This document shows positions 3,001-48,700 of a stretch of DNA of 64,000 nt, piece after piece. The first letter of the stretch is position 1; every line of letters begins with the position of its first letter. Made by a program: the position numbers and the translations under genes. The notes under the pieces were generated by a model. That model was given only the letters and a program-made list of their open reading frames with translations, did no database searches and was not told where the DNA came from. Source of the DNA: Mycteria americana (Eukaryota > Chordata > Aves > Ciconiiformes > Ciconiidae); NCBI RefSeq assembly GCF_035582795.1, contig NC_134383.1:2487501-2551500 (forward strand). Direction: 5' to 3'.

Positions 3001-6000
3001 TCGCTCATTTCCAACTGTATCTGTGATGTGATGCATGTCCTTGGCAAGTCACTTAACCTCTCTGTACTGTAGGTTCTGCACTCGCAAAATTTATTTTAAT
3101 TTTACTTTTGTTATAATGTGAAGTGTGTGATGTGGCAGAGAGATCCCAAGTGGGAGACATGAGAGTGAATCTGGTTTTATGGTGGGAGAGGGACTTTTTT
3201 TCCACAGCTGAGCAGTCTGTGGGTAAAATCAGACAGTTAGGGTGGGGCTAGCACTGAATGCAAAACTGTTCTTTGCTCCCATTATTAATTATATTATTAA
3301 TATACAGGTTACTATTAGCTTATGCCACAGAAGGATCTGCTGCCCTCGAGCACAGGAAGTGTAAGCTTGAGCTAAACCAATACCTTTGCTAGCTAAAAAT
3401 GAGACTGAGATACTCTGTGGAGGAGGGGATGGAGTATTTACACAGATACGCAGAGCAATCAAAGGAGACCTGTGGCTGGCGTCAAGCTGTGAGGCTCAAG
3501 TTTCATACCCGATTTGTTTTCCCCGTGATGACTGGTACTGTTAAGCCCAGGAGGAATGTTCATTTTCTGTGAAGAATGGAGTACGGGGGCAGAACAGTGA
3601 GGTGGGGGCTGAGCTTTGCAAGGATGAGGAACCACCAAACACAAACAAAAATAAGCTATGCGCTCTAAGAAAGAATAAAACACACCAAGAGACTATCCCT
3701 GCCACCAGGTGGGAAAGCAAATAGCAGCCACTATTTGGTTTCAGCACAAGCCCCCACAATTTTCCTTACTTTTCAGCTTACAGATAGGAAACCATGCTCC
3801 AGCATGGTCTGCACGATGCACAGCCAGGCAGTGGCTGCCCTGGCATTTTGTACGGAGTCCATAGAGTGTCCAACGGAACTAATTTGTTGTGCACTCTGAA
3901 GAGGGAAGCCGACAGCAATCTGCACTCCCCATGCAGTTACAGGATTCCCATCTCTGGAATTTCTTGGTACTCCTCACTCTGTATTTTATGATTTATTAGT
4001 CTCCCTAACAGCAGAATAAGCAAATAAAGAGCACTTTTAAAATTATATTTTCCTGACCAAGATGAATTTCAGTCTCCTAGAGGTTCAACCTACAGAACAA
4101 GATGGGGAAAAAAACCAGCCAGCCTGCTCTTTGTCAGCCTCTCTCAAGAAATGTGTGTCCCCAAAGCAGATTTACAGGCTTTCCAACTGCCTTCAGACAT
4201 AAAGACTTCATATACTCAGGAGAGGAGTTAATTCTATAAAATAAACTGTGCTCCATAACCTTGCTGCAGTTTATATTATTTACTGGTACAACAGTAAAGA
4301 CCTGCGAAGATAATAAAAACTCCGAGCTAAAAACACCAGCTGTAAAACAGCCACAAACTCTTCAAAAAACTATTGCTGATTTGCAGAACCCCGGCTGAGC
4401 TGCCCAGTATGCCTTTCTGTTAGTAAGCATCTCTCCTGCCCTGAAATCTTGCTTGTTTTTCTCCTTCTCTGTTCCTCAAAGCACTCAAAGCACTGGGAAA
4501 CACAGCATTTCCTGAAAGATGCTGCACAAAAGCATGCTGCCTTGCCCTGGAAGGTCTGTGTGAGACTTGGGACATGCATTTACCTCCGTGAAGCCCTCCT
4601 GAAGAATATCCAGTAAATTCCCCCTGGCCAAACAAGCGAGCATTCTCCACGAGCCCACCGATGGGCGAGGGTCTCAGAGGACACAGGGCAGATCCTCCAG
4701 CTCTGGGCACGACCTCTTCCTCCTTCTCCCAAAGACAAAGAGTTGGAGCTCATCAGGAACTGCATTCATAGTCCCATATGTGCAGCCCCGTTACTGCACA
4801 CAGATAGTTGAGCCAAAGTCAAGGCTTGCACTGGGCATGCTCGAGAGGGAGCTGCTGGGGGAGTGGCGGGAGAGATGTCATACGGTTCCTATAGAAACGC
4901 TTCAGCTTACAAGATGCAGGCCCAGGGCTGAGTTGGGGAAACATCTGAAACCCATTTCCAGCAGTCATACTCACACAAAACCTGCTGTGTAAAAGAGATT
5001 TTCAAACCCACCAAACACAGCAAGCCCTGTATGGCGTGGGAGCAGGGAGAGAGTCAAGGAATGGCAAATAGCAGATGCCTTTGCTAGAAAAGCTAGAAAA
5101 GCAAAAGGAAAGACTCTAAGAGCTGCCAGCTTTAACTCTCAGCAATCGTTCTGCAGCCCCGAAGAAACAGCAGCGTTGTCAGCAACCTGGTAGAGACAGG
5201 AAGCTGAAACCCAGGCCACAACACAGCTAGTAGCATTTGCACAGTACTCAGCCCTGCTCTAGCTGCCCTGGCAATGAAGTTGAAAGAAGAAAAAAGACAG
5301 AAAACTTTCAAACTAGAATTAAATACAATCCCTAGCAAATTTTCTAAATCAATAATAACTGCATTCATTCCAGAAACAAGTATCAAATGTCTCCAGGCAA
5401 CATCCTAAACTTCATCTCACCTTACAGTAAATGCCCAGGAAAAAAAAAAGAAAAACCTCTCAGAGTGGATGAAGACACCTTCTGCTAGGGGCTCTGGCTG
5501 CCAGTCCACAGAGCAACACTGCAAGTACTACCCAGTGATATCAGATGGTGCCTTCGGATTTCAAAATACCTGGCCAAACATTTCCAAGTGAGAGACACAT
5601 TTAAAAACAAATACATCTTTCTGCCTAAGTATTGAAGTGTCTGGAGGAAAAAGCAATTGCATAATTTTACCATTTTACCCTGTCACATACGGAGATGCAG
5701 CTAAAATACAGGAAGACAAGCAACAGGTAATTTCCCTCTGTAACCAACCCAAGTAATTCAAAAAGGAGTCAGCCCTCATGCCTCCATGACATAACTTTTA
5801 AATTATTTATTCATGTTTACCTTCCCTACTTTTCATAATTCAGTGGGAATTGAGATTTTTATGTTTTCATTGATTGTAATATCACATCTGTTAAGCAAAA
5901 CAACAGATTACTGTGAGGTTTTGCATAAAGTCTTGTAAGCTGGCAATGCTAGTGGTTAGTACCTTGATCCAGTTTACTTTTGAGACTCAAAATGCCATTA

Positions 6001-16100: not shown

Positions 16101-19000
16101 TAGCTCAAGGCAGCATTGCTTTGTCTTGTGGTGGTTCTCACTTTGCTCTTGCAGCTCCCTCCTCCACTGCCTCTATGAGCTTGCGGGGTCTCCAGGGCCC
16201 TCCTTGCCAAGGCTTGTGTGCTAGAGCACTTTGCTTCTTTACAGCATTCAGGCACGTTGTGCAATGTAGTTAAAATAGCACCATTTAAAGCAAAATCAGC
16301 TTCCCTATCCTCTTTCCTGGGAGGTAGGTTGCAGTATCAGCTTTCCAAGCTGCTCTTGCTTGTTTTGGTTGCCTTCCTTTGTAGAGAGAGCATTAGCAGG
16401 CAGTGCGTAGACTGAAGCTATTCTGAGGCTGTCTGCAGGCTAATCACAGCCAGGCAGGAGACGGCATCTCCCAGCCTCAGATCTGCGGTAATTAGAACGG
16501 ATGTGGCAAGGGAAACAAGAGTAGGGTAAACCTCTTCCCTCTTCTCAAAACCAGGTCAAACATGCTGTAACTAGCTCACAGCCTGCTAGAAGCACATTGT
16601 ATTCTGCATGACAGCACACATGTCCCTGCCCCTTCCCCTTTCCCCACATCGATGCCAACATGATTTCTGCCCTACACAAGCCTGCTTCACAGTGGGTCCT
16701 GAATTTTGGCATCTTTGCTGTCCATGCACACCGGAGGCCCTGAGTACTAAACCAAGTGGTGAGAATACCACAGGAGCCTCCTAAGTCTCTTGATCTTTGC
16801 TCTATCTCCCTTAGGGCCCATGCTTCGTTAGTGATCATGACAAGGATCTTCCATCCAGGAGAAGGTGGGTGCCTGCCTCCCCTGAGCCCTTTTGTAAGTC
16901 TCAGCTTTATTTAGGAAGTCCAGCTCTTGGCTGACACAGCTGTGGTGCTGAGCAAATATCCAGAAATAAAAGCAGTATAGGAGCCTGGAAACACGTGAAC
17001 TAAAATTAAGTACCATTTTTTTTCCCTCTGTCACCAAGGCAAAGCTATGAATCACGCAAACTTCTGCAGTGGGGCTTCAGTGCACCAGTCTGCTCTTGAT
17101 TGTGGTCCTCTGTAGGTGTCTCGCAAGCCTATGCTACCAACAGCACATTCCCATTTGCCTTCCTCTCTCCTTGCTTAGAGCCCGTTTGAATAGTGTATGC
17201 AGTACAGGGACAGCCTAGGAGCCTAAGGCCCTTCTTCACCCATGTGTTTCCATTTGCAGGACAGGGAATGATGCTTCTGGGGAGAGAGCTCTGCTTTCTT
17301 CTTGCTGCACAGTCTATAAGGCAGATGTTAGCACTTCAGTCCCACAGGGGTGCTGGAGTCAAAACGGTCTTTGACCAGAGCTTTGCCCTCTGCTGTAGGA
17401 ATCTGCCAGAAGGTAGTAGTGACACCACCAGCAGAAATATCATCCCAGCTTCTTACTTTCCATGCAGCTTCTGGGAAAAAATCAAGTGGGACATAGGAGT
17501 CCTGCTCCAGTAGCCTTGAGGGAGCAGAATTTGACACTGCCCGAGAGGAACCAGCCTGCCACCATGCTGCTCCCCAAATGGAGCAGAAAGCTGCTCTCCT
17601 GCCCAGCCTTGCATAGATGAGTGACCTTCAGATTCTGGTTTATACTTCCTTTTGGAGGCACAAGTGTTTGTGCATGGCCTGGCACAGTCTGGACCTGAAA
17701 GTGCCCCCACAGCATACACTGTAATGGTGTTGTTTGTACTCCGGCGTCTCTGGCTTTGCCAGTCCATGCTGTGGCACGGCTCTCCCCACCACACAGTATC
17801 AGCAGTGTTCCCAGTAACTGCAGCTTTGCTCAGGGGAACCAGCCTGTGCCCCAGGCATTCCCTGATCAGGCCCTTGTCCGCTGCAGTAATGAAGCTGATG
17901 CCCTGAGTGCCTCATTTACCCTCTGCCACAGGGCAGAGGAAGTAGAAAATGTGACTTTTGGTGGGGGACATGTCAAGAACCACTCTTCTACCTCCCACCT
18001 GCAGTTCCTATTCCTAAATCCCAAACTCCTCTGCCCTGCAGCTTAGGGTTCAGGTTGGAAGGACCTCGGTGTCCTGAACCTCCTCCTCTGCTCCAGCCAC
18101 TAGGTGATGCTGTGTCTCTTGTAGTTATTGAAAAGCGCTGATGAATTTCTAATACTTTTAACAAATGCAGTGTTGGAGAGAATGTCCTCGGAGCTTCATC
18201 TGATATTCATGGCTCTCCTCCTTGTACCACTCTCAGAGCTGAAAATACTTCCACTTGGCACCGAATGATGCTCCACTGTGACCTTTTTCTGTAAGCAGGA
18301 GGTCCAGGGCACAACATGAGCCAGGAGGGATTAAACTGCCATCCTCCCTCCCAGGGAGAAAGAGCAACATCATGTGAAAAATGTGGCCAGGATTTCCCAA
18401 GCGCAAATAAAGCCCAGACAGACGCAGGCAGGGAGAGGGGCTGGATGCGCTGAGGGCAGGATGGGGTAGCTGACCCACAAGCCTTTAGTGCCAGCACTGC
18501 CCCAGGGGCCCCTCCCTGCAGTATGCCAAAGGGACACCTTACGGTGTGCACCTGGCCGGAGACCACTGGGGCAAGTACAGGGATTTTAACTAGATCCTTC
18601 CTAGAACTGAGCTATTCTCAGCTGCTGGCATGGCTGCGGGAACCCAAGCTGCCAGTCCCAGGAGGTGCCACAGCCTGTCTGGGCTGAGACATGTGAGCAA
18701 CAAAGCCCCTTCGCCTCCCCCTACCCTGCCTTTATCAGGCAGGGGCTGCCCCAGCCTCCCGTCCCCGCTCCGGCACCTGCACAGCAATCCCCCTGCTCAC
18801 TTGCTCTCAGTTTCTGTGTGAGCTGGCAAGGTGCAGGGCTGACAGCCAGGCGCGAGCCCTGGCAAACCCAGCACATGGAAGCAAAGCTTGCAAAGTCCAC
18901 CCAAACTTCCGCTCAGGCTGCCCGGAGCTTTGTCTGCCAACCCCATACCTGGCAGATGCCGTACTCACCATGGTCGCCCGCAGCTGCAGAGATTGCCCAT
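13188..19000 (-). CDS. C11orf52: C11orf52 homologue, small N-myristoylated-type protein
   Basis: Four coding exons on the minus strand: 19,000-18,969, 14,666-14,626, 13,833-13,787 and 13,424-13,188. They total 357 nt, coding for 118 residues (human about 123). All junctions have GT/AG sites and the phases agree. The start MGNLCSCG gives Gly2 with Cys5 and Cys7, a myristoylation/palmitoylation-type membrane anchor as in human. The exon 1-2 junction rebuilds W-N-C-P-S-T followed by a lysine/arginine run. The C-terminal exon carries HYADIQV, NATEYATLNFP and the end YDSKNGTLV, nearly identical to human. The tyrosine-containing HYADIQV and EYATLNF segments resemble immunoreceptor tyrosine motifs, but this is only a resemblance. 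The protein's function is unknown. It lies downstream of HSPB2 on the same strand, as in mammals. Confidence 0.9.
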
Positions 19001-34560: not shown

Positions 34561-37500
34561 AACCGCTCTTCTCGTAACGGTCGAAGCAAGGCTGGAGAGC
34601 GGCATGCCTTCCTTAAATCAGGGACCTGGCGCTGCGGTGCCTCCGTAGGAATTGTTCAGTCACTTTATAGACCTTCGCCACTCCAGGCGTCTTGGAAGCC
34701 CACTTTTGCGACGAGGAATTGGAATTGTCCGAGAGGCTAAATCAAATACCCTAAAATCTTATCAGACTGAAACAAGTAGCCAGTTAGCAGAAGTCTCTGC
34801 AAGACAGCAAAGGGAGCCTAGGCTTTCTGGTTTTCCTAATGCATGTGAGTGAGAAGATGCCTGGCAGCTGCTGCTCTGATATGCTTAAAAATGGACTAGA
34901 GGACTTTAATTGCTACCTTTCTTTAAAATTTTACACAATGATAAACATCAGAGTCTTGGTTTTTGTTTACTTTTGAAGGAGCTGAAGTTGTGTTTTCTGT
35001 GGACTGCACCAAGCTGAAGGACTATTTTTTACCAGAAAAAAGAGAATTTGATTGTATTTACTTCAACTTCCCTCACTGTGGGAGAAAGGCTGGGGTAGTG
35101 AAGAACAGAGAGCTTCTTGCCCACTTTTTCCATAGGTGAGTAAACCAGAAGTAGTTCTATGCTAATTGACTGATGTGATACAGATTTCTAGCTGTGTTAC
35201 AGGTGTTTTTCTGGCACTATAAAATTTCTGGGTGTGCTAGCAGGATTTTTCTTGTTGCCTGGCTTTCATTCCAGCTCTGCAGAAGTGCTGACAGAGGAGG
35301 GAGAGGTCCATGTGGCTCTTTGCAATGGACAGGGTGGGACACCTGCTGATCAACCAAGGAGAGAATGGCACAACAGCTGGCAAATAGTGGCTGTGGCAGC
35401 AGGAGCTGGATTTATCTTGAGTAACGTTCATCCTTTTAAAGCAGAGACTATCCATGGATATAAGTGTACAGGCTACAGGTAACTAACCATCATGTGGCAA
35501 AACTGAAAGTTGGTATTTGTGCTCTTATAATGCCTAGCACTAGTATGTTCTTTTAGTATCTTGTTTGTTGGAGAGAGGAACTCCCTTTCATTTTCCAGAA
35601 AATAGCTACAGTTCTTTTTCACCTCTAAGAAGAATAGCCAAGATAAAAATGCAAGCTTCTTGTCAAAGTACCCTCTAAAAAATAAGATTATCTTAGGATT
35701 TTAAAGGTCAAAATGGTCCATTTCAGAACAAATGTCAATCTCATCCTAAAGACAGCAGGAGGACTGTGGTAAGTGTATCTGCTTAGCAGACAATCACAGA
35801 ATCACAGCATGGTTGAAGTTGGCAGGGACCTCCAGCAAGCATCTAGTCCTACCCCACAGCTCAAAGCAGAGCCAGCTAGAGCAAGTCACTCAGAGCCACA
35901 TTCAGTCTCCAGGGGTGGAGACTGTACAACCTTTCTGTGCAACTTGTTCCGATGTTGGACCACCTGCCCAGTAAAGATATGGTAGTGTTGCATCTTTGTC
36001 ACCTTGTAACAAGACCTGGGATTCAACAAGAGGTGTGTTAGTGTTACACAGAGTTATCTGTGTAATGCTTACTTGTGACACATTAAATATAGGGAGTGAT
36101 CGATGACTTTGCTCTGCTTTTGTGTATTGTCAGGAGTCAAGATAAATCTTTTTGTGTAGAGGGTGCTTTAGACCACATTTTCACACGAAGCATGCCACTT
36201 CCGTGTTTCAAACCTATGATCTGCGAGATAGAACTGGAAAGCCGAAAAGTTTCTTTTCAAGTACCACAAGTACTTGTGGATAAAATTAATAGGTAAGTTT
36301 TATAATTAGTTTCTGTTTGGCAATAACACATACTCCTGCTCTCAATGGGAATGACCCCAGCATAGGTGTCATAAAATGGAATTGCTTTACTTTCCCTCCT
36401 TTCCCCTTTACAGAATTTCCTGTTCCATTTTTTCTTCAAGTCTGCTTCATGTTGGCTTGTGGTTATGGGCTACTTACAAACAAGTCTACAGAACAAAAAG
36501 AAACTTTATGGTTGAGACCAAGCTGCTGTATACTTGAATGCACAAATAAAGATGAAAACTTTAATCTGTGTTACTGTACTGTGGAAGAAATTCAGGAGCT
36601 GGCTTGGTGTCTCCTAATACCACAATACTAAGGCTAGCTAGGATAAAAAATGCTAACCTCTTAGGCGAACTGCTGTGTACTTCGGAGACTATCCAGGGCT
36701 AGCATAATTTGATTCATTTCTGTAGTTTGGTAATGCCTGTGCTGAGTGGAAATGGTGATGCTGACTGTTAAGTCCCATTCGTTTTTTACCAGCGAAAGTG
36801 CAGTTAATTCTTGATTGCAACCCGGAGACAAATACCATTATCCTGAAAACGTGTTAGCCATTGCAACACCTTTGATGAAAGACTTGGCTTGTTCAGGTAG
36901 TTACTAGAAACCAGCTTAATATCTGAGATTGTTTTGGGTAAATTGCTGCTCTCAAATTATGATCACAGGAAGGCATTTCAAGGAAATTTCTTCAGTGGTG
37001 TCTGTAATTTGGTGTCTGTAACTTTATTTTTCACAGGGGTTTCCTAGAACTAAATTCAAATCATCCAGTACGGACAGTAAAGGAGAAGCTTACTGCAGAG
37101 CTCAGCCAAGCCTTTCCGTTACAAGACATTGACTACTGCGTTTCTCTGCTCCACCAAGGTCACCTCAATGGTGTTTGTCACTCAAATATCTTTTGGATCA
37201 TTCTGAGCCCAGAGGAGACTCAAAGTACTGAAGAAATGTCTAATGGATTGGCAAATGCAGTTTCATTTTCCCATGTTGACTTTTGCAGGGACACGGATAA
37301 GAATGGCTGGGTGAATGTACAAGAAGGGTGCCACATTTCAAAACAGTATTGTCTTAGACCTTCTCTTCTACCTTATGCTCAGGCAGTAATACAAAGAGGA
37401 GCCTTTTCCCCAGGGACACTTCATGTTCTTTCTGGCCCAGTTTTCAGGAAGTGTCTTATCACTCCTTACTCCGTGCCTGTTTTTCATGAGATGGTTCTTG

Positions 37501-38225
37501 TATGTGCAAGTAACAGGGGTACAGAGAACAGCTGTATCCAGATGTTGGTGAATAATATTAAAACCAGCATACATTCTCTTCACCAGACTGTTTCCAGCTT
37601 TAAACTGAATATCAATCTGCAGGAAGCAATGAGCTTTGAAACAACTGAGCTAAATGACTTTGCTGCTTTTGAATCTCAGCTTGGTAAAATTCAGTACTTC
37701 ATCTGTATGGAGATAGATACTTCAGGCTCCTGTGAGAAGGGTTCCTGTGTGGGAATTATAAGGACAGCTCATTATGAGCTAGTAAGCAGTGAGCTGGTTG
37801 TTGTCTTTGCTTCACTGAATCTTGACCTCCTAGCCATGCTGATCTGTGGAATATCTGACTGGCGAATGCTCTGGACATCAGACACGCGGTTCCTCTCTCA
37901 ATTCCCTAGGGGAGAGTTAAGGCTTTTCAAGAGTTTTTCTCTCTATCCACCTTCATACGTGCATGATGTCAGCTTTTGGGTTCCTGATGGGGAACAATTT
38001 GATGAAGTTGCTTTTCACACCATTGCTAGGCGGGTGTCAGGTGAAATGGTCATATCCATCCAGTTAATCGACAGTTTCCAGCAGTCAGAGACCGGACGGA
38101 AGAGCCTCTGCTACAGGCTGACCTTTCAGTCCTGTGACAAGGCACTGAGCCGCCAGGAGGTGGCAGAGATGCAGCTGCTCTTCCGGAAGGAAATAAACCA
38201 ACGCTTGCATGTAACTCTTCGGTAG
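34261..38225 (+). CDS. FDXACB1: ferredoxin-fold anticodon-binding domain-containing protein 1
   Basis: Five exons, 34,261-34,429, 34,979-35,135, 35,275-35,478, 36,134-36,292 and 37,037-38,225, with consistent phases, code for 625 residues (human 624). The N-terminal part (about 1-220) is a DUF2431 Rossmann-like methyltransferase-type domain: the start MEPVRRVLLLGEGNFSFA holds the glycine-rich LLGEGNFSF loop, followed by SVDCTKL, FNFPHCGRKAGV, HVALCNGQGGTPAD and YKCTGYRSQDKSF. The C-terminal 95 or so residues (LYPPSYVHDVSFWVPDG to the end) are an FDX-ACB domain like that of mitochondrial phenylalanyl-tRNA synthetase. The middle is divergent. Function is unproven; yeast and plant relatives of the N-terminal domain act on rRNA (BMT5) and the C-terminal fold suggests RNA binding. 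The start is fixed by homology; all domains look intact. Confidence 0.96.
35791..36025 (-). mobile_element. CR1 LINE 3' fragment in FDXACB1 intron 3
   Basis: The plus strand begins AATCACAGAATCACAG and continues with GGTTGAAGTTGGCAGGGACCT, ATCTAGTCC, GGGTGGAGACTGTACAACCT and CCCAGTAAAGATATGGTAG. This is the antisense of the 3' end of a CR1 non-LTR retrotransposon with its terminal octamer-like repeats. The element therefore lies on the minus strand, is 5'-truncated as usual for CR1, and has diverged considerably, so it is old and inactive. The family is characteristic of birds and reptiles. Confidence 0.85.
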
Positions 38226-39190
38226 AGCGTTGTATCTTGTTTTCAGGTGCTCGAGCAGCGTCTGCACTTGTTGCCGATCTGGAGAATGTGGCCTACGTCT
38301 TGTTGGACCTAACGCTGTGTGTTGTTGCAGCGCCTTTTACAAAGGCGGTGTGGGCTTCAAGTACCTGCGCACATTCTGAATGTGGAAATTCCTGTCAGCG
38401 AAGACCAAGCATCTTCCTGTTCTGCGTGCGTGATATGAAAGCTCATTTGAAAAAGCGGAGCCTTTCTTTGCTAGGGTCCTGTGAGACTGGACTTGATCTC
38501 CTTACTGATGCCAATTCACTTTTCCTATTCTTGCTTGTGTTTGCCCGGTGCCTCGTACTGGTGGCGATTGTACCGAGTACACTGAAAGAGGGCGGGTCTT
38601 GCTATTTCCAAAGGGTTGTGTTCAGTTTGAGCACTGAAAACTCTGCGCAGGTGCTCGGTCCCTATGGGAGGATGGTGTGTGCTGGGCTGCCAGTGCCAGG
38701 GGTGCAGCCGGTGGGGCCCCAGCCACATGCGCCAGCAGGCTATTGCCCGAGTAGCTAATACAGAGGGGAATCAGCAATGGTAATTCCATTACTAGATTCC
38801 AAAGGATAGTAACTGATCCTAGAAGATAGCCGTACCACCAGTAGTGCATTAATAGCTACAGCAGAGGTAACTGCTGGCAGAGAACTCCAGCAGCAGAGTG
38901 AGTTACTGGAATCTGTAGGATCACACTGGGGAAAGGTATCAATAGCATGGTGCAAGACCTACTAATAGGTCTTTCTTTTAACAAATGTTGAAGACTCTGA
39001 GACCTGAGGTCATTGCTGACACTCTTGCGACTCCCAGATTGCGCTAGGTAATTCATGGCTGCCGCAGACACTAAGAAGTGCTGCCAGATACTTCTGTCAG
39101 AGTCTTCTAGCAGTAAGTAATTCTACAGCTGGAAAATCTACTCCTGGATTCTAACGATGGAGCCCCCCGAGTCTTTGGGAGTGAAATAAA
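38226..39190 (+). other. FDXACB1: FDXACB1 3' untranslated region with TAA-loop hairpins
   Basis: Sequence from the FDXACB1 stop to an AATAAA at 39,185-39,190, the first convincing poly(A) signal. The first half is unremarkable. From 38,776 there are compact perfect hairpins whose loops contain TAA: AATGG-TAATT-CCATT (38,776-38,790), AGGAT-AGTAACTG-ATCCT (38,803-38,820), CAGCAG-AGGTAA-CTGCTG (38,859-38,876) and AAGACCTA-CTAA-TAGGTCTT (38,954-38,973). Further GTAA(T/G) motifs follow at about 39,048, 39,114 and 39,202 with weaker pairing. The array then continues in the GC-rich DNA downstream. That this belongs to the FDXACB1 mRNA is inference. Confidence 0.5.
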
Positions 39191-39204
39191 AATCTCCTAC
39201 TAGT

Positions 39205-40250
39205 AAGTGCGAGAGCCTGGTGGAGCCGCAGGAGGGCCTGTCAGATACTGACCGATCCCCTCAGCTGCCGGCAGACTCGGTCGCGTCTGCCACCGGCGCT
39301 GCGTCCCAGCGGAGCCCAGTCGGCTCCGCCGCAGCCGTCGGAGCCCGCCGCACTGCGGGAGCGGGTCCGAGGCCGTGCAGACGGTCCCCCTGCGGGGCGG
39401 GCAACGAGGCGCGGGGGCCGCGGCGGGCGCGGGGCGCGTGCCCCCTCCCCGGGCGGCGCGCGGGCGTCTCGCGGGGGCGGGGGGCGGGCGGGAGCAGCCG
39501 TCGCGCGCGGGGGTCACCAACGGTCGCGCGCCTGTGTGAGGGGGAGAGCGGCCGCCTGAGGGGAAGGGGAGCGGGACCCGCCTGGGGAAGGGGCGGGCGG
39601 GCGGGCGGGCGGGGGTCGGCGCCGCCTGGGGAGGGTCCGCGATCGCCTCGGGGCGGGGGTCGGCCATCGCCTTCGTGGGGAGGGCGCCGCGATCGCCTCG
39701 GGGCGGGGGTCGGCCATCGCCTTCGTGGGGAGCGGGCCGCGATCGCCTCGGGGCGGGGGTCGGCCACCGCCTTCGTGGGGAGAGGGCCGCGATCGCCTCG
39801 GGGCGGGCGGGCGGGCGGGGGTCGACCATCGCCTTCGGGGGGTCTGCGAGCGCCGTGGGGAGGGCTGGGGCTCAGGCGCCGTCCCGGGGAGGCGCGGTCA
39901 GCCATCGCCACAGGGGGTGCGGAGGGTCCAGCCCCCGCCGGGAGCGGCCAGGAGCCCGGAGCAGCAGAGGACCCTTCGCACTCGTCCCTGCAGGGAGCAC
40001 CGGAGCACCAATTCGGTGAGAAAAGCCGATCTGCGAGGTTTTTTCCGAGGGCGGGGTGTAGGGGGTAGGGGCGGGAGGACGGCCGGGGTCGGGTGGTGCT
40101 GTGGAGAGCTCCCTCCGCGGGTCGGGTGGTGCTGTGGAGAGCTCCCTCCCGGGGCCGGTGTCCTCTCGGCCCTGACCGCGTCGTCGTGCCTTTGCAGCAG
40201 CTGGTGGAGCAGACAGAGCAGGCACTGCGAGGCAAGAGCGACGAGAAGAG
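39205..40250 (+). promoter_or_regulatory. CpG island at the head of the hairpin-array locus
   Basis: Extremely GC- and CpG-rich sequence with many GC boxes and G-runs, starting abruptly at 39,205. Parts at 39,405-39,560 resemble parts of the ALG9 CpG island (44,770-44,850 and 45,255-45,325), so this may be a duplicated promoter. It contains the 50-bp minisatellite and leads into a candidate first exon ending at a GTGAGA donor (40,016). The long open frames on both strands are ascribed to base composition. Confidence 0.6.
39629..39840. repeat. 50-bp GC-rich minisatellite, about four units
   Basis: The marker GATCGCCTCG recurs at 39,641, 39,691, 39,741 and 39,791, exactly 50 bp apart. Each is followed by a G-run and CGGCCATCGCCTTCGTGGGG, with the last unit diverging. 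Every unit contains several runs of three or more G, so quadruplex formation on the plus strand is possible. Because 50 is not a multiple of three, it cannot encode a repeated peptide in one frame. Confidence 0.95.
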
Positions 40251-40500
40251 GAGCGGAGGAAGCCCGGGAGACTGAAGTGGAGGAAAGAGAAAGGCACTCT
40301 GGGCAAAGGGACCTCCCTGTCACCGGGGCTATGGTCACACAAAGGCGTTGCCAGCACCTTAGGTGCCATGGCTGGCTTTGCACTGGGTGACCTCCCTGTA
40401 ACCAGGGCTTGGGTCTTGGCTTTTGTTGGCCTTTTGTCATGTTGCCCCATGGTTTGGCTGCCCGGAGAGAGTGGCAACCCTGTAAGGAGGGTGAAAGCCA
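39990..40500 (+). repeat. duplicated block, copy A
   Basis: First of four related blocks. It contains GGAGCACCGGAGCACCAAT and the donor GTGAGAAAAGCC, a G-rich intron, the acceptor CCTTTGCAG, a purine-rich exon (GAGGCAAGAGCGACGAG) and then hairpins at 40,310, 40,350, 40,389 and 40,472. Its last part corresponds closely to copy B. Confidence 0.85.
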
Positions 40501-40526
40501 CCGTCTTGGCACCTGGGGGGAGGTGG

Positions 40527-40737
40527 AGCTCCTGAAGACATGGTGTTGTGGTGCAGCCAGGATGGGCAGCCCGTAACTTGGGTGCAGGTCAGAGCCTTGG
40601 GCTCCGTGGGGCTTGTTGAGTGTGCCGAGCCGAAGGGGACGGCCCTGTAAGTAGGGTTGTGCACGTCCCCTGTGCTCAATGGGAGGTGCTGGGAGGGACC
40701 CCCTGTAAGCAGGTGGGTGTCCCTGGCCCCGGCCTTT
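40527..40737 (+). repeat. hairpin cassette, first copy
   Basis: About 210 bp beginning GAGCTCCTGAAGACATGG, holding three hairpins (40,566, 40,635, 40,695) and ending near GGCCCCGGCCTTTCAG. It is repeated in the same orientation at 42,387-42,595. Confidence 0.9.
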
Positions 40738-41084
40738 CAGAGGCATGGGGTTGAGATGTGTGGGGCTGGGCGTGCCCTGCCCTAGCCCTCTTTCTCTCTG
40801 CTCTCAGCCCCTGGAGCAGCTTGGGAGAAAGAGAGCCATGGGGGAAGGTGGGAGGCTGGGAAGAAAGGGCCCTCTCCTGGCATTGGGTCATGCCTGTGAG
40901 GGGGGCTCGGGTCCTGCCCGGGCAGGCCTGGCACTGGGAAGCCCTTTTATTGCCTTGAGCTGGGCCACCGCCCTGGAAGCAGGGCTGGGGCCTCTGCTCT
41001 TCTGCTTCTGCCCCCCTCCAGGCCGCTGGGCACCATGGTGGTGAGAAAGGTTGGTCTAAGGTGGGTGAGCCCGGGGGGGTAGAG

Positions 41085-41500
41085 CGTAGGAGGGGGGAAG
41101 GATGGCCGGGGGTCGGGGAGTGCTGTGGGGACCTCCCTCCGGGGGCTGGCATCCCTCTCTCCTCCAGGCGGAGGAGCTGGCGCTTGACTGTGCCCTCCTT
41201 CCTTGGCAGCAGCTCCTGGAGAACAAAAGGCATCATGTGGAACTGCGAGGCAAGAGCGAGCGAGAGGAGGAGCAGTGGGCTGAAGAGGGGGAAAGAGAAA
41301 GGCGCTCTGGGCAAAGGGACCGCCCTGTCACCGAGGCTGTGGTCACACAAGAGCATTGCCAGCACCTTTGGTGCCCTGGCTGGCTTTGTGCTGGGCGACC
41401 TCCCTGTAACCAGGGCTTGGTCTTTGGCCTTTTGCCACGTTGCCCCATGATTTGGCTGCTCAGAGAAAGTGGCAACCCTGTAAGGAGGGTGAGAGCCGCT
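41085..41500 (+). repeat. duplicated block, copy B
   Basis: Direct copy of block A lacking the GGAGCACC head. It keeps the GGGTCGGGGAGTGCTGTGG segment, the purine-rich GAGGCAAGAGCGAGCGAGAG segment and the same four hairpins at 41,318, 41,358, 41,397 and 41,471. Substitutions are scattered throughout. Confidence 0.85.
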
Positions 41501-41829
41501 GTCTCCGTACCCGAGGGGGAAATGGAGCTCTCTGGACCCCAGGCCCACCCTGTAAGCAGGGGAGAGCCGTTTCCCCGCTCCCCTCCTGCGGCCCTGGCGG
41601 CTTTCTGCCTGCTGGTGGCCTGGCTGGCGTGACCCCCTGGAGTCGGGGCGTGTCACGACATTAGCCCCTTGGCCACCCGTGAAGCCCCTTGGCGTGTTGA
41701 GGCCCCTCTGGGCCTCCATGCAGCCCGGGGGGCAGGTCTGAGGCTCTCCTCTCCTGCTCGGGGGTAGGGATGGCTCCCCAGGCATTGGCTGCGCAGAGCT
41801 CGCTCTCTCTTCTGGGAAGTTCTGTTTTT

Positions 41830-41885
41830 CCCTGTCTGTGTCTGTTTCTGTATCCGTGTCTGTGTCTGTGTGAGTGAGTGAGCGA
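41830..41885. repeat. TGTCTG-type simple repeat
   Basis: Degenerate repeats of TGTCTG and TGTTTCTG passing into GTGAGTGAGTGAGCGAATGAG. A simple repeat within the hairpin-array locus. Confidence 0.8.
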
Positions 41886-42386
41886 ATGAGCTTCTTGTTT
41901 AGGCCCCTGTTAAAATTGCTGCAGCGTACTTAGCCTAAACTTCCCAGGAGGGAGAGAAGGGCTCTGTGCAGCAACGGGGGGGTCCCCTCTGAGCCCACGA
42001 GCGGAGGGAGGGTCCGGGCTTGCCCCTTCTTTCTAAGGACGGAGCGAAGCCGCTTAGTCGTAGCGCGGGCAACGCGACCTGCCTGTAGTCAGGGCCCGGG
42101 TCTCTGCCTGCGTGGCCGCCTGTCCTGCTGGCGACCTGCCAGCGTGACAGCCCCGCACTCGGGGCGTGTGTCACGAGCCGTGGAGCCCTCTGTCCCCAGG
42201 AGCAGCCCGACCTCCCTGTAGGCAGGGCTGAGGGGCTGCTTTAGCCATCCAACAGGAGCGAGCCCTCCCTCGCCCTTGAGAAGGGTGCAGGTTGAGGAAG
42301 CGCTGTGCTGGAGGGTGCGGTCCCGCCTTTGGCGCTGCTTTTGGCTGGGGCGACCTCCCTCCGCCGTTGGGGTCGAGGTCGCTCCC

Positions 42387-42595
42387 TGGGCTCCTGAAGA
42401 CGTGGTGTTGTGCTGCAGCCAGGACGGCCAGCCCGTAACTCGGGCGCAGGCGGGAGCCTCAGGCTCCGTGGGACTTGTTGGGAGCGAGTGCCGAGCCGAG
42501 GGGGACCGCCCTGTAAGTAGGGCTGTGCGTGCCCCCCGGTGCTTGGAGGGACCCCCTGTAAGCAGGCGGGTGCCTCTGGCCCCGGCCTTTCAGGG
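42387..42595 (+). repeat. hairpin cassette, second copy
   Basis: Diverged direct copy of 40,527-40,737 with hairpins at 42,431, 42,500 and 42,546. Differences fall partly in stems: G-T closing pairs of the first copy are G-C pairs here, and the outer stem of the third hairpin uses GAGG/CCTC instead of GGGAC/GTCCC. Confidence 0.9.
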
Positions 42596-42639
42596 ACAAA
42601 AATTTGGAAGTTTTGTCTTCTTACCAGAGAATTGGAATG

Positions 42640-43020
42640 GCTTCTAGAAATCTAGGGAGCAGCACTGAGCCAAGTATCTCCCCCAGAGCCATAAAAAACA
42701 TCCCAAGAGCCATAAAAAACATCCCAAGGATGCTCTTGTGTGACCGCAGCCCTGGTGACAGGGAGGTCCCTTTGCCCAGGAGCGCCTTTCTCTTTCCCCC
42801 TTTTCAGCCCAACGCCGCTCTTCCTCTCGCTCGCTCTTGCCTCGCAGTTCCACACACGATGGATGCCTCTTCTTTCTTTCTTCTCCAGGAGCTGCTGCCA
42901 AGGAAGGAGGGCGCAGTCAAGTGCCAGCTCCTCCGCCCGGAGGACAGAGGGGTGCCGGCCCCTGGAGGGACCTCCCCACAGCGCTCCCCGACCCCCGGCC
43001 GTCCTTCCTCCCTCCGCCCC
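42640..43020 (-). repeat. duplicated block, copy C (inverted)
   Basis: The reverse complement matches blocks B and D, including CTCTCGCTCGCTCTTGCCTCGCAG against the purine-rich segment and CCATAAAAAACATCCCAA (present twice in tandem) against the 3' part of D. It is followed by an inverted copy of the 40,777-41,060 segment, so its outer neighbour is duplicated too. Confidence 0.85.
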
Positions 43021-43284
43021 CTACCCCCCCAGGCTCAGCCATCTTAGACCCTGTGGTGCCCAGCAGCCTGGAGGCTTAAAGAGCAGAGGCCCCAGCCCTG
43101 CTTCCAGGGCGGTGGCCCAGCTCAAGGCAATAAAAGGGCTTCCCAGTGCCAGGGCTGCCTGGGCAGGACCCGGGCCCTGCTTGCAGGCCCGGAATGGGCC
43201 CCTTCCCCCCAGCCTCCTGCCTTCCCCTGTGGCTCCCTTTCTCCCAAGCTGCTCCTGGGTCTGAGAGCAGAGGGAAAGGGGACC

Positions 43285-43346
43285 AGGGCAGGGCAGGGCA
43301 GAGCAGGGCAGGGCAGGGCAGGGCAGGGCAGGGCAGAGCAGGGCAG
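43285..43346. repeat. (CAGGG)n pentanucleotide repeat
   Basis: About twelve 5-bp units, mostly CAGGG with two CAGAG variants, at the outer edge of the right arm of the inverted repeat. The pentamer equals the 3' half of the common hairpin inner stem (CCCTG/CAGGG), which may be coincidence. Confidence 0.85.
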
Positions 43347-43884
43347 CAGATTTAGGGTGGCCAGCACCACTTGCAGGCCCCAAACACCAGCCACTTTCCA
43401 ACCAGCTGCTCTGCATTGAAGCGGCAGCTTCTCCCAAGTGGTGAGGAGCCCACCTCAGGAAGTTTTTCTGCCCAAGCCCCCAGAACCTCCCGGGAAAAGC
43501 CCGTGCCAAAGTCACCAGCCACCGCTGCCGATTCACCTGCCTCCAGGGCAGAACGTGCCCAGCACTCTTGATAGTGCTCAGCTGGCAGCCTGTGTGGGGT
43601 GACCGCCCCGTTAGCGGGGTGCGGGTCAGGGTGCCCCTGAATCGGAGAGAAGGAGCCTCCGTGGGCCTTTGGGACCAGGGCTGCCCTGTAAGCCAGGGCC
43701 CGGCCAGTGCCCTGGAGTCCCGGGCGCTTTGCAGTCCAGGCAGCGGCTCGAGCCCCCTGTAAGCAGGGGCGCGGCCTCTGTGGCCGCTGCTTTGCCGGCC
43801 CAGCTTCATTTGCCCAGGGTGCCCGCCTCCGACCGAGCCCAGATCCAGCGCCGGCTGGAACTCCGCAGGCGGCAGGGGTGGCGC

Positions 43885-44360
43885 CCGGGGGGAGCACCGG
43901 AGCACCAATCCGGTGAGAAAAGCCGGTCGGCGAGGTTTTTTTCCGGGGGGGGGTGGGGGGGGGGTGTTAAGGGATAGGGGGTAGGTGTGGGTGGAACGCC
44001 GGGGTCGGGTGGTGCTGTGGAGAGCTCCCTCCGGGGGCCGGCCCGGCGTCCCTCTGTGCTCCAGGCGGAGGAGCGGGGGCTTCTCGGTCCTGAGCGCGTC
44101 CTCCTGCCTTTGCAGCAGCTGCCGGTGAAGAAGAAAGAAGAGGCATCCATCGTGTGTGGAAGGAACCGCGAGGCAGGAGCGAGCGAGAGGAGGAGCGGCA
44201 GTGGGCTCAAGAAGGGGCAAGAGAAAGGCACTGCTGGGAAGGGGATCTCCCTGTCTTCGGGGCTGCCGTCACCTAAAGCATCACTGGCCCTTTGGGGATG
44301 TTTTCTGTGCCTCCGTAGCAGGTACTTGGCTCATTGCAGTTCCCGCGATTTTTAGAAGCT
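43885..44360 (+). repeat. duplicated block, copy D
   Basis: Direct copy with the GGAGCACCGGAGCACCAAT head, donor, 203-nt intron and acceptor, as in A. It is truncated or diverged in the hairpin-bearing part: CTCCCTGTCTTCGGGGCT remains where A has its TCAC hairpin. The 3' part (GGGATGTTTTCTGTGCCTC) is shared with inverted copy C. Confidence 0.85.
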
Positions 44361-44686
44361 GCTCCGGTTGTGCGTTAAGATGACACGACTTCCCAAAGTT
44401 GTCTCAAAACTACTTTGTACCTTGATGTTGCTGCACCAGCTGGGGGAGTGGAAGGGCTCTGCAGACACCCGAAGCGTCCTTTGAGGCTGTGTGCATGCTG
44501 GGGGACGAGTACTCGAGAGCAGGGATTTTGAAGTGGTTTCCCCCGTTCTGAATGCTTCTCTTTCAGCACCTGCACGGGAGAGGAAGCCGGTGGACCTCAG
44601 CCTCTGGAAGAACATGTTTCTCCTCTCTGTCCCAAAACAGCTGCTGTCGCTGCCCTTTTCCCAGCTATTCAGTGCTGGGGGTACCC

Positions 44687-44692
44687 AATAAA
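44687..44692 (+). terminator. polyadenylation signal at the end of the hairpin locus
   Basis: AATAAA within CCAATAAAATGC, about 80 bp before the ALG9 CpG island begins. It is the only canonical plus-strand signal between 39,200 and ALG9 noted, so it is the best candidate end for a transcript from the locus. Confidence 0.45.
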
Positions 44693-44749
44693 ATGCTTTC
44701 TCCAACTGTGAGTTCCCCATTTAGCTACTTTCCTGCCCAACTCTGCCCG

Positions 44750-45700
44750 GGCAGGGGCAGGGAAGGGGGCGCGGGCGGGGGGGAGCAGCCGCCGCCGCGG
44801 GGCTGCAACGGTCGCGCACGTGTGTGAAGGGGAGAGCGGCCGCCTCGCAGAAGCGCTGCCGCCGCGGGTGGGCGAGGGAAGCTTGTTCTGGGCCAGATGC
44901 CCTGTGCAGCAGTGTGCCTGCGCAGCGCCTACCCGGGGCCGTCGGCGGCGCGGCACGCGCGCTGTCCTCGGGAAAAGCGCGCTTACGGCCGCCCGCGCAC
45001 GCGGCGTGGAGGCGCGCGCCCGTGCCCACACCCGGCATGGCGGCCGGCGGCTTCGGCACCGCTCTCGTTTCGTCCGCTGGCGGGAGGGAGCGGGCGCTCG
45101 GCTTCCCGTACTCGGCATGGCCGCCAAGGGGGCCCGGCAGCGGCCGCGGGCTGGAGGTGGTGGGGAGTCGGCCCGGCCGCGGTCGGAGGCCGCGGTCGTG
45201 GAGGAGGCCCGCCTGGAGTAGGTGTCGGAGCGGGCGGCGGGGCCGCGGGGAAGCGGGGGCCGGGCTGCAGCGGGCGCCGGGCGCGTGCCCCCTTCCCCGG
45301 GCAGCGCGCGGCCGTCTCGCGGGGGAGGGTTCTGCAACCGTCACTCGGGCGGGATCGCAGCTGTCGTTCGGGGCCCAGCAGCCCTAACGCTGGCAGGGCG
45401 GTGTCAGTTGCGAGCACCCGCCCAGGTACTTCCTGGCTGCTGGGTTTTTACGGCTCAAAAGTACCCACGGCCCCGAGTGAGCCCCGCATCGGGTGGCCGT
45501 GGTGGGTGCCCAGCCGGGTTAGTGTGTGTTGTGGAAGTCGGTCTCCCCGGTCTCCCTTCGGTGGAGCTCCTCCCGGCCCTGCGGTAGCGAGTGCGTGGCC
45601 TTGCTCTCTGTTGTTGGGGGGAGGAGGGGGAGGTCCTGGGGGGGCTGTCTTGCAGCAGTGGGTTAATCACTCAGGGCCGTTGCTCCGGTGTGGTGAGGGG
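44750..45700 (+). promoter_or_regulatory. ALG9: CpG island, ALG9 promoter
   Basis: CpG-dense sequence around the ALG9 first exon with GC boxes and no TATA box, as expected for a housekeeping gene. An upstream ATG at 45,037 opens a different frame and overlaps the coding start, so it may act as an upstream open reading frame. Parts of the island are duplicated near 39,405-39,560. Confidence 0.75.
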
Positions 45701-48700
45701 GGGTGATGGTGCTTCCTTGGGGGGGAACTGGCATGCCCCAAAGAAAGCAGTGAATGAAAGACTCGTCTGTACTTACACAGTGCTTAAATGACAGAGATGC
45801 AAATACGCTTGTCAGTTCTTTGCCTAGTGTCACACTGGCAGTCTTGATCTTGTTACTGGGTCTTCTTGGTGCATATTTTTATTTTTTCTTTGGATTAGAT
45901 CATCTGGGAGCAAAGCAGGACAAGTTTGGGCCCCTGAAGGGTCAACAGCTTTCAAGTGTCTCATCTCAGCCAGGTTCTGTGCAGCTCTCTTAAGCAACAT
46001 CTCTGATTGTGATGAGACGTTTAACTATTGGGAACCGGTAGGTGGCTTTCTTTCCTTGGAGATACCTGGGATTTTGTAGTTGACCTGTGTAAATGCAGAT
46101 TTATCTAGAACCTTGTGCTAATCTCTGTGTTTCAAAGAGAAATTTTCTTACTCAAGAATTCAGAGATGGGAAGTGCAAAACTGTCTACTCTGTGCGATGC
46201 ATGTTTATGTATTTATTTATTTAATCTCCATTGTAGACACACTACCTCGTTTATGGAAAGGGGTTTCAGACATGGGAATACTCTCCAGCCTATGCCATCC
46301 GCTCCTATGCTTACCTGTGGCTTCATGCCTTACCAGCCTTGTTCCACGCTAGAGTCCTACAAACTAACAAGGTAAATCAGATGTGTGAAAGCTTCTTTTG
46401 TGATGAATAAACATGCCTTTAGTCTGTGTTAAACAGCTGCTTTGTTTGCTGTCAGAGGTAAGAGAACTGGTGTTTACAAAACACTAATTTATTTACAAAT
46501 ACTAACCTCCCTGTAAGGATTTGGAAGGGTTTGTGAGCTAACTCAATGGGATCCAAGGAAGAGTGATTGGGAAGTTGCAGGGAAATGCTCCAGGCTCCGG
46601 TTTGATTGAGAAGCTGTCCCAGAGGGGCTGGTAGCTCCTTGGCCTTTTGAGTGTGTGCAGGCCTGGAGACAGTTACCTGGCAGCCACAGGCTCTCATTCA
46701 CCCCTGTGAGTTTCACCCTGATGCTTTAGAAGCCTGTATTGTTTTCTATGCCAGCTATCAGTGACTGTTTTGATTTTTTTTCAATAAACTATAAAAAAAA
46801 AGATTAGTATTTTGCAAGGGATATTGCAAACTGAACTCACAGAAATGTAAAAGAAAAAGCACCGAATGTGCATTCTGGGTATCTATTGCCATACTTGGCA
46901 TGTTTCTGCAAAACAGAAAACAAAAGAGGGGTAGTCCTGGTAAGTTCAGCAGGCTGTGTTCATTTTCTGTGTTGTAAAGGACTTCAGTGTTAGATGGCTA
47001 GGCCTTGAGCTGCTGGGTTCTTCAGCATCCCTTGGTATGGGATCTGGGTCTACAAGAATAGGCTCATTCACCACGGCCAAACTTGCTCCATCCTGTTCAG
47101 AACTTTTGTTCTTGGGACCGCCTTGTTAGTAATAGGTGCATAAGCTTCATTGCAAACCTCATTCAGACTCTGAGTATGTCTCCTAGGTTCTTATCTTCTA
47201 TTTCCTCCGATGCTTCCTGGCCTTCCTGAGCTGCGTTTGTGAACTCTACTTCTACAAGTGAGTATTAGAAGGTGTCTACAGTGAATGTTTTGGAGCAATG
47301 TGAGCAACATATTCAGTTATTGCCACAGGAAGTGCACTCTGAAGCTCATGCATAGATGTGTCTGGTAAATTTGGCTACTTCACAGTGAACCTTGAAAATA
47401 TGGGTTCTCATGATAACTTAATGAAATATTGGTCAGAATTCCACTGTTAGGACAAAATTTTATTCTCAGATCTGCCACCCACATCTCCACTCCAGCATTT
47501 TGTTGGCTACACTCATTTTCTTACTGATGCCAGCAAGCAGGGTGGGAGTGTTGTAAACTGAGCTCTGCTGGAGGAGAGGCTGGTGCTGTGTTTGCTTATG
47601 ATAGTGGCATTTTAGAGGAATACATTGATTGTTGCTGTCTGTAATGTATCTGCCAATGGTGTTTACATCCACTAAAAGCAGTAGCCTGAACATACAATTA
47701 TCTTGTCTAAGCTGGATTTTTATTTTTACCTGCTGCCTCTGCATTTGTGACTCTCAAACTATTACCTTCCATGACTTTTCTGTTGGCAATAGTCTGGTTT
47801 TAAGAACGTGAGATGTGGCTTATTGCAAGATGGGGTTTTGTGAGGGGTGAAAATCTTAGATAGATTGATGTTGCTACAGCAGTGCAGAATCCCTAAGTTC
47901 CTGAGATTTGCACAAGCACAACTCACACTGGTAGAAGCCAAGTCTCTTCTAGAGTTTTGCACTAGTGTAATTTACAAGGATCTGAAATCCCAGGCCAGAG
48001 GCAGTCAGGTTGCCTTCAGTGGCTGAGTAATGAGAATCACCCACCTTAAAGCTCTCAGGATGCTCCATGGATTGTTTGTGGTTCTGCATGCATTGGGTAC
48101 TGTTCTTTTATGTACTGAGGATATTTTTGTGGTCTCTAATTCTCTCTTGCTTCCTTAGGGCTGTGTGCAAGAAGTTTGGGCTACATGTGAGCCGGCTGAT
48201 GTTGGCCTTCTTAGTACTCAGCACTGGGATGTTTTGCTCATCTGCAGGTAAGTTTGCTTAGCGATGATACTGACAATTACTCTGTCCATAGAAACCAAAG
48301 ACAGGTCCAGAGAGAAGAAAATCCACAGCACTAAAATATCTCTGTAGGAATTGTTTGTTGTATTCTGTTGCAGGTATTTCTCATGGCAGGTGTGATGACA
48401 GAATAAGTGTTGATTCAAATGATGTTCCCTGCATTACTCTCTTGTATCTTTCCATTTCCAGGGCATGTTTGTTTCTGTTGCTGCCTCCAGTCTCTCTGCA
48501 ATGGGCTATGCCTTTTAAACAGGGTCTTGGCCTACCTTCCCTGAACATATTTTAATCCAAGGAAGGAGGGTCATATTTTGGCATTGTCATTTGCCTTTGT
48601 GTCCTGTCCCCTCTGGCTGGTTGTACTAGCCAACCACTGTAAGACTTATAAAACACCTGCTGTAGGTATTGAGTAAAGTGCAAAGAGAGACTTTGAGCAA

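Follow-up and report, generated by a model that had tools for sequence, protein, structure and literature searches.

What lies between FDXACB1 and ALG9 in the genome of the wood stork, Mycteria americana, and is it an RNA gene? We analysed a stretch of 64,000 nucleotides (NCBI RefSeq assembly GCF_035582795.1, contig NC_134383.1, forward-strand positions 2,487,501 to 2,551,500; hereafter the window, with coordinates counted from its first base) in which, judging from the gene matches on either side, a dense array of small nested hairpins with TAA-containing loops is located between these two genes. The original prediction had placed the array at 38,776–43,789 and taken it for a candidate undescribed structured RNA. 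The array looks like an undescribed noncoding RNA gene that RNA family catalogues do not contain; an annotated long noncoding RNA (lncRNA) may exist there in genome databases. That the hairpins form a constrained element family is, taken alone, a claim we make with considerable confidence, and the element is likely to act as a folded RNA. To the whole reading, in which a spliced lncRNA has amplified exons and its hairpins form repeated protein docking sites on a multivalent scaffold, we assign a probability of roughly 0.45.

The hairpins named in the original prediction, B and X among them, lie where it put them, and its repeated two-stem plan with a bias towards TAA-type loops is borne out. 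Two-stem hairpins with a TAAN, TCAN or TAGN loop number 11 in 38,776–43,789, and 40 dinucleotide-preserving shuffles gave 1.20 ± 0.84 (maximum 3), so that shuffled sequence does not produce as many TAA-loop hairpins; with any loop allowed the counts are 57 and 41.1 ± 4.8 (maximum 52). In this count the loop-specific excess is confined to the plus strand, the reverse strand of 40,196–44,300 having a single TAAN, TCAN or TAGN two-stem hairpin where 0.95 are expected. A scan of 40,196–43,800 restricted to Watson-Crick pairs found seven TAA-loop hairpins on the plus strand (0.25 ± 0.54 in 60 shuffles, maximum 2) and two on the minus strand (0.18 expected). Allowing up to three mismatches, the window has 30 occurrences of the core CCCTGTAAGCAGGG, where 100 shuffles gave 9.4 ± 3.4 (maximum 17); 20 of the 30 fall within 40–44 kb, 16 of them on the plus strand.

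A covariance model (R1) built from 15 distinct hairpins recovered 21 sites in the window at E ≤ 0.02, every one inside 40,309–43,777, with 19 on the plus strand and two on the minus strand. Fourteen of these sites are seed members, which match by construction, and the other seven are copies arising from segmental duplication; the seed hairpin M scores only E 0.28, and the best match outside the array region has E 1.2. The predicted "more than 20" hairpins are therefore reached once duplicates, which add at least seven copies, are counted, the distinct ones numbering about 15. The predicted span needs trimming at its start, as the family occupies 40,309–43,777 and the block at 38.75–39.2 kb is not of the same sequence family. 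That block (38,750–39,235) is separate, AT-richer, precedes a CpG island and is not recognised by R1. It is structured on both strands (minimum free energy z −3.45 on plus, −3.20 on minus), holds three two-stem hairpins in which TAA lies within or next to the loop, where 0.13 are expected, and includes perfect small hairpins such as GGAATC-AATGG-TAATT-CCATT-GATTCC and AGACCTA-CTAA-TAGGTCT. A lone similar-looking GACCTTTTTCTGTAAGCAGGAGGTC hairpin at 18,280–18,304, far from the array, is probably due to chance.

The 15 distinct hairpins follow a common plan: an outer stem, a few unpaired bases on the 3' side, an inner stem of 4–6 bp and a loop that is usually UNRN. Aligned on their cores, they give the consensus GACC-n-CCCTG-TAAG-CAGGG-nnnn-GGnC. 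The first loop base is U in 12 of the 15 and the third is a purine in 14. The original prediction had pointed to UMAC loops, U-(A/C)-A-C; as four-base loops these occur in two of the 15 hairpins, A (TCAC) and B (TAAC), hairpin D having TAACT, and the wider rule U-N-purine describes 12 of the 15.

Pairing was scored in a register that joins outer columns 4–9 with 29–34 and inner columns 10–15 with 20–25. In this register 79.0% of 157 cells are paired, compared with 35.8–55.6% when partners are slid by one to three columns. Shuffles of the 3' letters still pair 73.1 ± 2.0% of cells (79.0% was reached by 2 of 500), so much of the pairing reflects the shared consensus and a lesser part is individual to each hairpin. 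Inner pair 14–21 is U-A in nine hairpins, U-G in two and C-G in two, and outer pair 7–31 is A-U in five, G-C in three and G-U in one. Pairs changed on both sides number seven, a count that 57 of 500 shuffles attain and that is not significant alone; the covariation score of the paralog alignment was attained by 10 of 500. Outer stems prefer their own flank: at 12 sites chosen by core, the Watson-Crick run length is 52, against 37.1 ± 3.9 with the flanks of other hairpins (P 0.0006 with free register, P 0.04 with fixed register), and for all 15 hairpins, three of which had been selected with their outer stems in view, it is 179 against 99.4 ± 19.8 (0 of 20,000 permutations).

Homologous DNA was reached through a protein search with a meaningless antisense open reading frame (ORF) at 40,676–41,926; scoring was confined to the 7,997 candidates with most words in common, and five predicted proteins were found. 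A second search with three of these gave 21 proteins, queries included, for a total of 23 homologs. These 23 predicted "proteins" are antisense readings of DNA homologous to the array: back-translated and aligned base by base with the stork, they match 40.7–44.0 kb at 76–93% identity at fixed bases, and hairpin order is kept. At this identity the contigs are probably from birds, and the array, whose absence from relatives would have told against the original prediction, is present in 23 homologous contigs. Base-level alignment was used instead of tblastn, whose amino-acid identities (hairpins 0.540, linkers 0.491) were misled by frameshifts. The alignments include hairpins A2, B2, C2, L, M, N, O, P, W, X, F and H and exclude the unit-1 copies A to E and V. 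The homologs are mutually related (several pairs at 0.92–0.98), so their counts are not independent and P values are overstated.

Across the homologs, fixed-base identity is 92% in inner stems (654/710) and 85% in linkers (4884/5740), and the inner stem exceeds the linker in all 23; the corresponding counts are 466/559 for outer stems, 202/238 for loops and 188/267 (70%) for bulges. At G/C positions alone the inner stem is identical at 559/585 and the linker at 3397/3818, while at A/T positions loops reach 163/173 (94%) and linkers 1487/1922 (77%). The combined identity of inner stem and loop, 0.900, was matched by 10 of 861 circular shifts of the annotation, and the low bulge identity by two of 861. 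Deleted bases amount to 10/3202 in hairpins and 704/11242 in linkers; with insertions included there are 29 indel events in hairpins and 208 in linkers (odds 0.49), with hairpins lower in 21 of the 23 homologs. Where the stork departs from the family, the homologs have the family base. Specifically, among homologs with a fixed base there, the first loop base of hairpin M (G in the stork) is T in 6/7, that of hairpin O (C in the stork) is T in 4/4, and one inner A2 pair, C.A in the stork, is C-G in 8/9. The better-kept inner stem and loop favour a constrained element over chance.

Several results weigh against a selected RNA fold. Folding of both strands against shuffles, as the original prediction proposed, gave the plus-strand hairpin excess described above together with ordinary bulk energies (120-nt windows over 40.2–42.6 kb, mean z −0.31 on plus and −0.61 on minus). 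In a 200-nt context 15 of the 21 modelled hairpins have a mean pair probability of at least 0.5, which speaks for the fold; for A, A2, D, L, V and W the predicted pairing is poor. In the homologs, outer stems show no better conservation than linkers (P 0.29), being kept in B2 (74/76) and N (28/30) and not in L (49/68) or C2 (107/141). Outer pairs are paired in 0.80 of homolog cells versus 0.86 in chance linker stems, a comparison in which some outermost pairs, defined on the stork, are lucky matches that few homologs share (L 41,542/41,568; C2 41,468/41,500) and the null is likewise stork-defined. Pairs changed on a single side were kept in 9/18 (inner) and 6/25 (outer) cases and pairs changed on both sides in 0/2 and 2/7, against 0.45 and 0.37 in chance linker stems; the C2 pair 41,472/41,496, for example, has become A-U instead of G-C, with both arms changed, in P0141 and P0143 and is broken in P0123 and P0127. 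RNAalifold on the paralogs returns only the four innermost pairs, with a covariation term of −0.1. G.U and A.C are both depleted among paralogs and equally frequent in homologs (11 and 11; inner 7:2, outer 4:9), so that wobble counts do not choose a strand. Finally, in the stork duplicates of D to F, hairpins differ at 15/96 positions and linkers at 13/111; pooled with the other unit 1/2 duplicates, where hairpins differ at 5/84 and linkers at 36/223, this gives P 0.28.

The compensatory evidence, as these alignments present it, is thus that of the paralogous hairpins and not of the cross-contig comparison. Since conservation across contigs covers the core only, the core appears constrained and the outer stem is backed by the paralogs alone. 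The structured RNA reading of the original prediction accordingly stands as regards plan, loop bias and constraint on inner stem and loop, and falls short in the homologs, where changed pairs are not kept above the level of chance stems. We infer that selection acts on the RNA fold.

Neutral amplification is a rival explanation of this picture. A palindromic, GC-rich unit next to a CpG island could have been multiplied by tandem, segmental and inverted duplication, with hairpins as by-products and template switching keeping their arms alike. Much of the locus is indeed duplicated, the hairpins are of shared descent, and both the ordinary bulk folding and the pooled divergence of stork duplicates, in which hairpins do not fall below linkers, agree with such a process. 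However, neutral spread does not predict that inner stem and loop should beat linkers in 23 of 23 homologs, or that deletions should avoid hairpins (related homologs, as said, not independent ones), nor that the aberrant stork loops of M and O should have the family T elsewhere. We regard it as an unlikely explanation, though one to be taken seriously.

The main rival is a DNA site, since it is a palindrome that the contigs conserve. A dimeric transcription factor would then bind the palindromic core CCCTG-TAAG-CAGGG, the array being an enhancer or insulator cluster near the ALG9 promoter and RNA folding incidental. Conservation of palindrome and spacer without the outer stem suits this proposal, as do changed pairs that are not preferentially kept and wobble pairs that leave the strand unsettled. 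A DNA site has no need, however, of paralog outer flanks that pair beyond permutation. Against it, too, the outer stem of B2 keeps the high identity quoted above across a bulge of 20/29. One homolog, P0132, also appears as a spliced RNA with the hairpins. We consider a DNA site rather improbable.

The bearing of P0132 on a spliced lncRNA comes from its comparison with P0142. The antisense reading of P0142 passes an exon end, then GTGAG, and continues through the intron, whereas in P0132 a like exon end is joined directly to CAGCTGAT, the exon start of the next unit (CAGCTG), with no intron. As read from its sequence, P0132 looks like the product of splicing at the predicted intron and would place W, X, A, B, C, L and M together on a single mature transcript; genomic intron loss or a chimera is possible, this being one contig read via its protein. 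In both P0132 and P0142, W and X lie upstream of a unit with A-B-C-L-M, as expected from tandem units. In P0129 and P0134 the P side is joined straight to the W side, without the stretch that contains D2 to F2 and the inverted segment.

The repeated donor and acceptor units, together with an AATAAA at 44,687, lead us to predict a gene of five exons on the plus strand (junctions marked by a slash). Its presumed promoter and first exon lie in a CpG island at 39,240–40,015 (GC 0.80, CpG observed/expected 0.99), which ends at the donor CCAATTCG/GTGAGA at 40,015/40,016. Three forward units follow, starting near 40.0, 41.05 and 43.9 kb; in each, similar donor and acceptor sites (TTTGCAG/CAGCTG for the acceptor; TTGGCAG in unit 2) bound a presumed intron of 169–203 nt, and hairpin A comes next. 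Predicted exon 2 (unit 1; 40,198–41,040, acceptor TTTGCAG/CAGCTG, donor GGTG/GTGAGA) carries hairpins A, B, C, D, E, F and H. Predicted exon 3 (unit 2; 41,210–43,912, acceptor TTGGCAG/CAGCTC, donor AATCCG/GTGAGA) carries A2, B2, C2, L, M, N, O and P, then D2, E2 and F2, an inverted segment, and V, W and X. Predicted exon 4, the start of unit 3 (44,116–44,321, acceptor TTTGCAG/CAGCTG, donor GTAGCAG/GTACTT), has a degenerate hairpin A4, a weak R1 match at 44,243 (E 3.9). A putative terminal exon at 44,567–44,710 (acceptor CTCTTTCAG/CACC) would contain the AATAAA, followed by a T/G-rich stretch, its end being approximate. Exon GC in the array is 0.63–0.65.

The units are visibly duplicates. The unit 1 exon is duplicated with 41,074–41,530 and 42,390–42,593, and 39,993–40,344 corresponds to 43,890–44,278 (73%). 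Units 1 and 2 both hold A-B-C and D-E-F, with an extra 0.87 kb (L, M, N, O, P) between C and D in unit 2. Pieces of the ALG9 CpG island recur 5.3–5.8 kb upstream in swapped order, 39,415–39,481 corresponding to 45,262–45,329 (90%) and 39,473–39,557 to 44,765–44,845 (86%). A 50-bp minisatellite of 3.6 copies (39,627–39,807) lies inside the upstream island. The inverted duplicate segment (42,603–43,295, minus strand) pairs with 40,773–41,356 and 43,971–44,396 and carries reversed copies of hairpin A (42,742–42,768) and hairpin H (43,087–43,115); all minus-strand R1 copies sit in this segment, a refinement of the array as first described. Between the inverted arms, 87 nt around hairpin H are identical and the remainder differs by about 16%, as expected from gene conversion. 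A CAGGG pentamer repeat of 12.6 copies (43,284–43,346) marks the end of the segment.

The individual hairpins, all on the plus strand, are given here with loop and R1 E-value. Unit 1 has A (40,310–40,336; TCAC; 0.00096), B (40,389–40,415; TAAC; 1.5e-5) and C (40,471–40,501; GTAAGG; 2.5e-5), with predicted pair probabilities in context of 0.01, 0.73 and 0.90, followed by D (40,563–40,590; TAACT; 0.0014), E (40,634–40,671; GTAAGT; 0.0013), F (40,694–40,724; TAAG; 1.2e-5) and H (40,961–40,993; GAAG; 9.6e-5). Read antisense, hairpin F gives ACLQGVPPS in P0121 and P0122. The copies in unit 2 begin with A2 (41,318–41,344; 0.0047), which has the single inner-stem C.A mismatch noted above, B2 (41,397–41,422; 0.00027; homolog inner stem 112/115 and loop positions 1–3 32/32 identical) and C2 (41,468–41,500; 0.00012). 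Then come L (41,542–41,568; TAAG; 0.0078; homolog inner stem 117/119 identical), M (41,628–41,657; GAGT), N (42,076–42,102; TAGT; 4.5e-5; homolog inner stem 22/22), O (42,143–42,175; CACT; 0.00016) and P (42,209–42,238; TAGG; 0.00098). D2 (42,425–42,453; 0.34; pair probability 0.81), in which two G.U pairs of D become G-C, precedes E2 (42,500–42,536; 0.0025) and F2 (42,547–42,576; 0.019). Beyond the inverted segment are V (43,600–43,628; TTAG), the best R1 match at 8.1e-6, W (43,679–43,704; TAAGC; 0.012; homolog inner stem 30/34) and X (43,741–43,789; TAAG; 2e-5; homolog inner stem 33/35).

We also weighed a protein-coding array, in which the repeats would encode a repetitive protein. Long ORFs do cross the region on both strands, but the hairpins occur in all three frames, homologs read one and the same hairpin in three different frames, only 40 of 237 homolog indels are multiples of three, and none of the eight array ORFs tested belongs to a Pfam family. 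Indels that ignore codon phase and the missing Pfam families indicate that the array is not coding, and we rejected a coding repeat as scarcely credible. Processing of the hairpins into small RNAs, or their use as marks for transcript cleavage, would suit the regular spacing of neighbours (roughly 60–90 nt in several runs), but stems of about 10 bp are far shorter than microRNA precursors, and no microRNA or snoRNA family of Rfam matches at threshold; we think this very improbable. More broadly, none of the 4227 families of Rfam 15 reaches its gathering threshold in the window, in line with the description of the array as undescribed; in 38,700–44,750 there are sub-threshold matches only (mir-4716, 21.1 of 76 bits; snoU82P, 16.5 of 42 bits). 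ARAGORN found no tRNA genes in the window, and microRNA, snoRNA and tRNA were rejected as identities on these grounds. A 5' splice site is matched by pairing with U1, and some loops contain GTAAGT; decoy 5' splice sites are not favoured, as the TCAC, TAGT, TAGG, TTAG and CACT loops spoil the match. An exact 20-mer pattern had no match in viral contigs, and a protein-based scan of them gave four pattern matches, none confirmed. No title or abstract start describing the array was found in the literature, nor were four core strings, in a search that did not extend to supplements and mostly did not cover subscription papers.

The neighbouring genes are as follows. The FDXACB1 exon at 37,008–38,225, in which a domain search detected the FDX-ACB domain, is 100% identical to a wood stork protein over 98% of its length and 97% identical to those of two Ciconia storks. 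An exon at 46,237–46,371 matches the Alg9-like mannosyltransferase family (E 5.4e-14), and we infer from an ATG and CpG island at 45,117 that ALG9 exon 1 lies there. HSPB2 and an alpha-crystallin are found at 23.6–27.5 kb. This agrees with the order CRYAB, HSPB2, C11orf1, FDXACB1, ALG9 given for chicken chromosome 24 in the available text of PMC12046372. As far as their available text goes, two chicken selection studies single out the interval near ALG9 and the small heat-shock genes (PMC12046372, PMC10286233). In the region of the last FDXACB1 intron, a 120-nt window at 36,541–36,660 folds with z −5.48 on the minus strand and not so on the plus strand, going by the z-score alone.

Returning to the spliced lncRNA, we hypothesize that a polyadenylated transcript would run between FDXACB1 and ALG9 in the direction of ALG9, with its start in a CpG island that has stretches of sequence in common with the ALG9 island. 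Its exons would have been tandemly amplified along with the short introns between them. Each exonic element would have an inner stem of 4–6 bp closed by CCCUG/CAGGG and usually a U-N-purine-N loop, in about 15 versions, or more than 20 elements with duplicates. Loop and stem together could form a docking site for one RNA-binding protein, which many copies per RNA would concentrate. Protein docking is favoured because stem, U-N-purine loop and spacing are kept from copy to copy, whereas bulge and linker diverge. Should the RNA be made, the locus would offer a vertebrate lncRNA whose repeat a covariance model, and not sequence alone, can recognise. Natural variants in loop, bulge and copy number in other birds would make hairpin-repeat function directly testable, and the locus would exemplify a lncRNA that has grown as its exons were amplified next to a duplicated CpG island. 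Should the palindrome be a DNA site instead, the locus would represent an avian regulatory array, conserved and close to ALG9 and the small heat-shock genes.

Known systems offer three comparisons. UMAC loops fold like GNRA loops. The stork loops resemble U-turn or GNRA-like tetraloops in being U-N-purine in 12 of 15 hairpins, a likeness that concerns loop sequence alone, and they differ from UMAC in that most are UAAG. Hairpin O has C in place of U, and C can replace the conserved U of U-turns according to the available text of PMC6061696; that of PMC5311481 does not contain the UMAC-GNRA term. The lncRNA Firre, as described in the available part of PMC4820808, has local repeats (RRD) in one locus, one repeat acting as a nuclear retention signal. 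The stork array is likewise confined to one locus, but Firre repeats are defined by sequence, whereas the stork unit is a short stem-bulge-stem-loop. Among the features of repeat-domain lncRNAs, the repeated structured element and its plan are present, transcription is suggested only indirectly, through P0132, and a conserved protein-coding frame is absent. The closest likeness in plan is to the Xist A-repeat (RepA), a 26-mer with an AUCG loop in 7.5 copies in mouse and 8.5 in human that has been proposed as a platform for protein multimerisation (PMC5742192, available text). In both, a short GC-rich tetraloop hairpin recurs along a lncRNA, in the stork a predicted one, and the linkers are less structured. 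The stork array does not have the AUCG tetraloop or the U-rich linkers of Xist, its loops being U-N-purine-N and its linkers GC-rich; it also consists of about 15 diverged versions, has whole predicted exons amplified, and is autosomal, beside ALG9, in a bird. The likeness is thus one of plan and not of descent, a relation in sequence being neither claimed nor found. A bolder extension, which we offer as speculation and think doubtful, is that birds in general have this lncRNA, with whole exons amplified and at least 20 U-turn-like hairpins with a 3' bulge, which condenses one RNA-binding protein into a domain of the nucleus or has a cis effect on ALG9 and adjacent genes; it would then be an avian design counterpart of the Xist A-repeat on an autosomal microchromosome.

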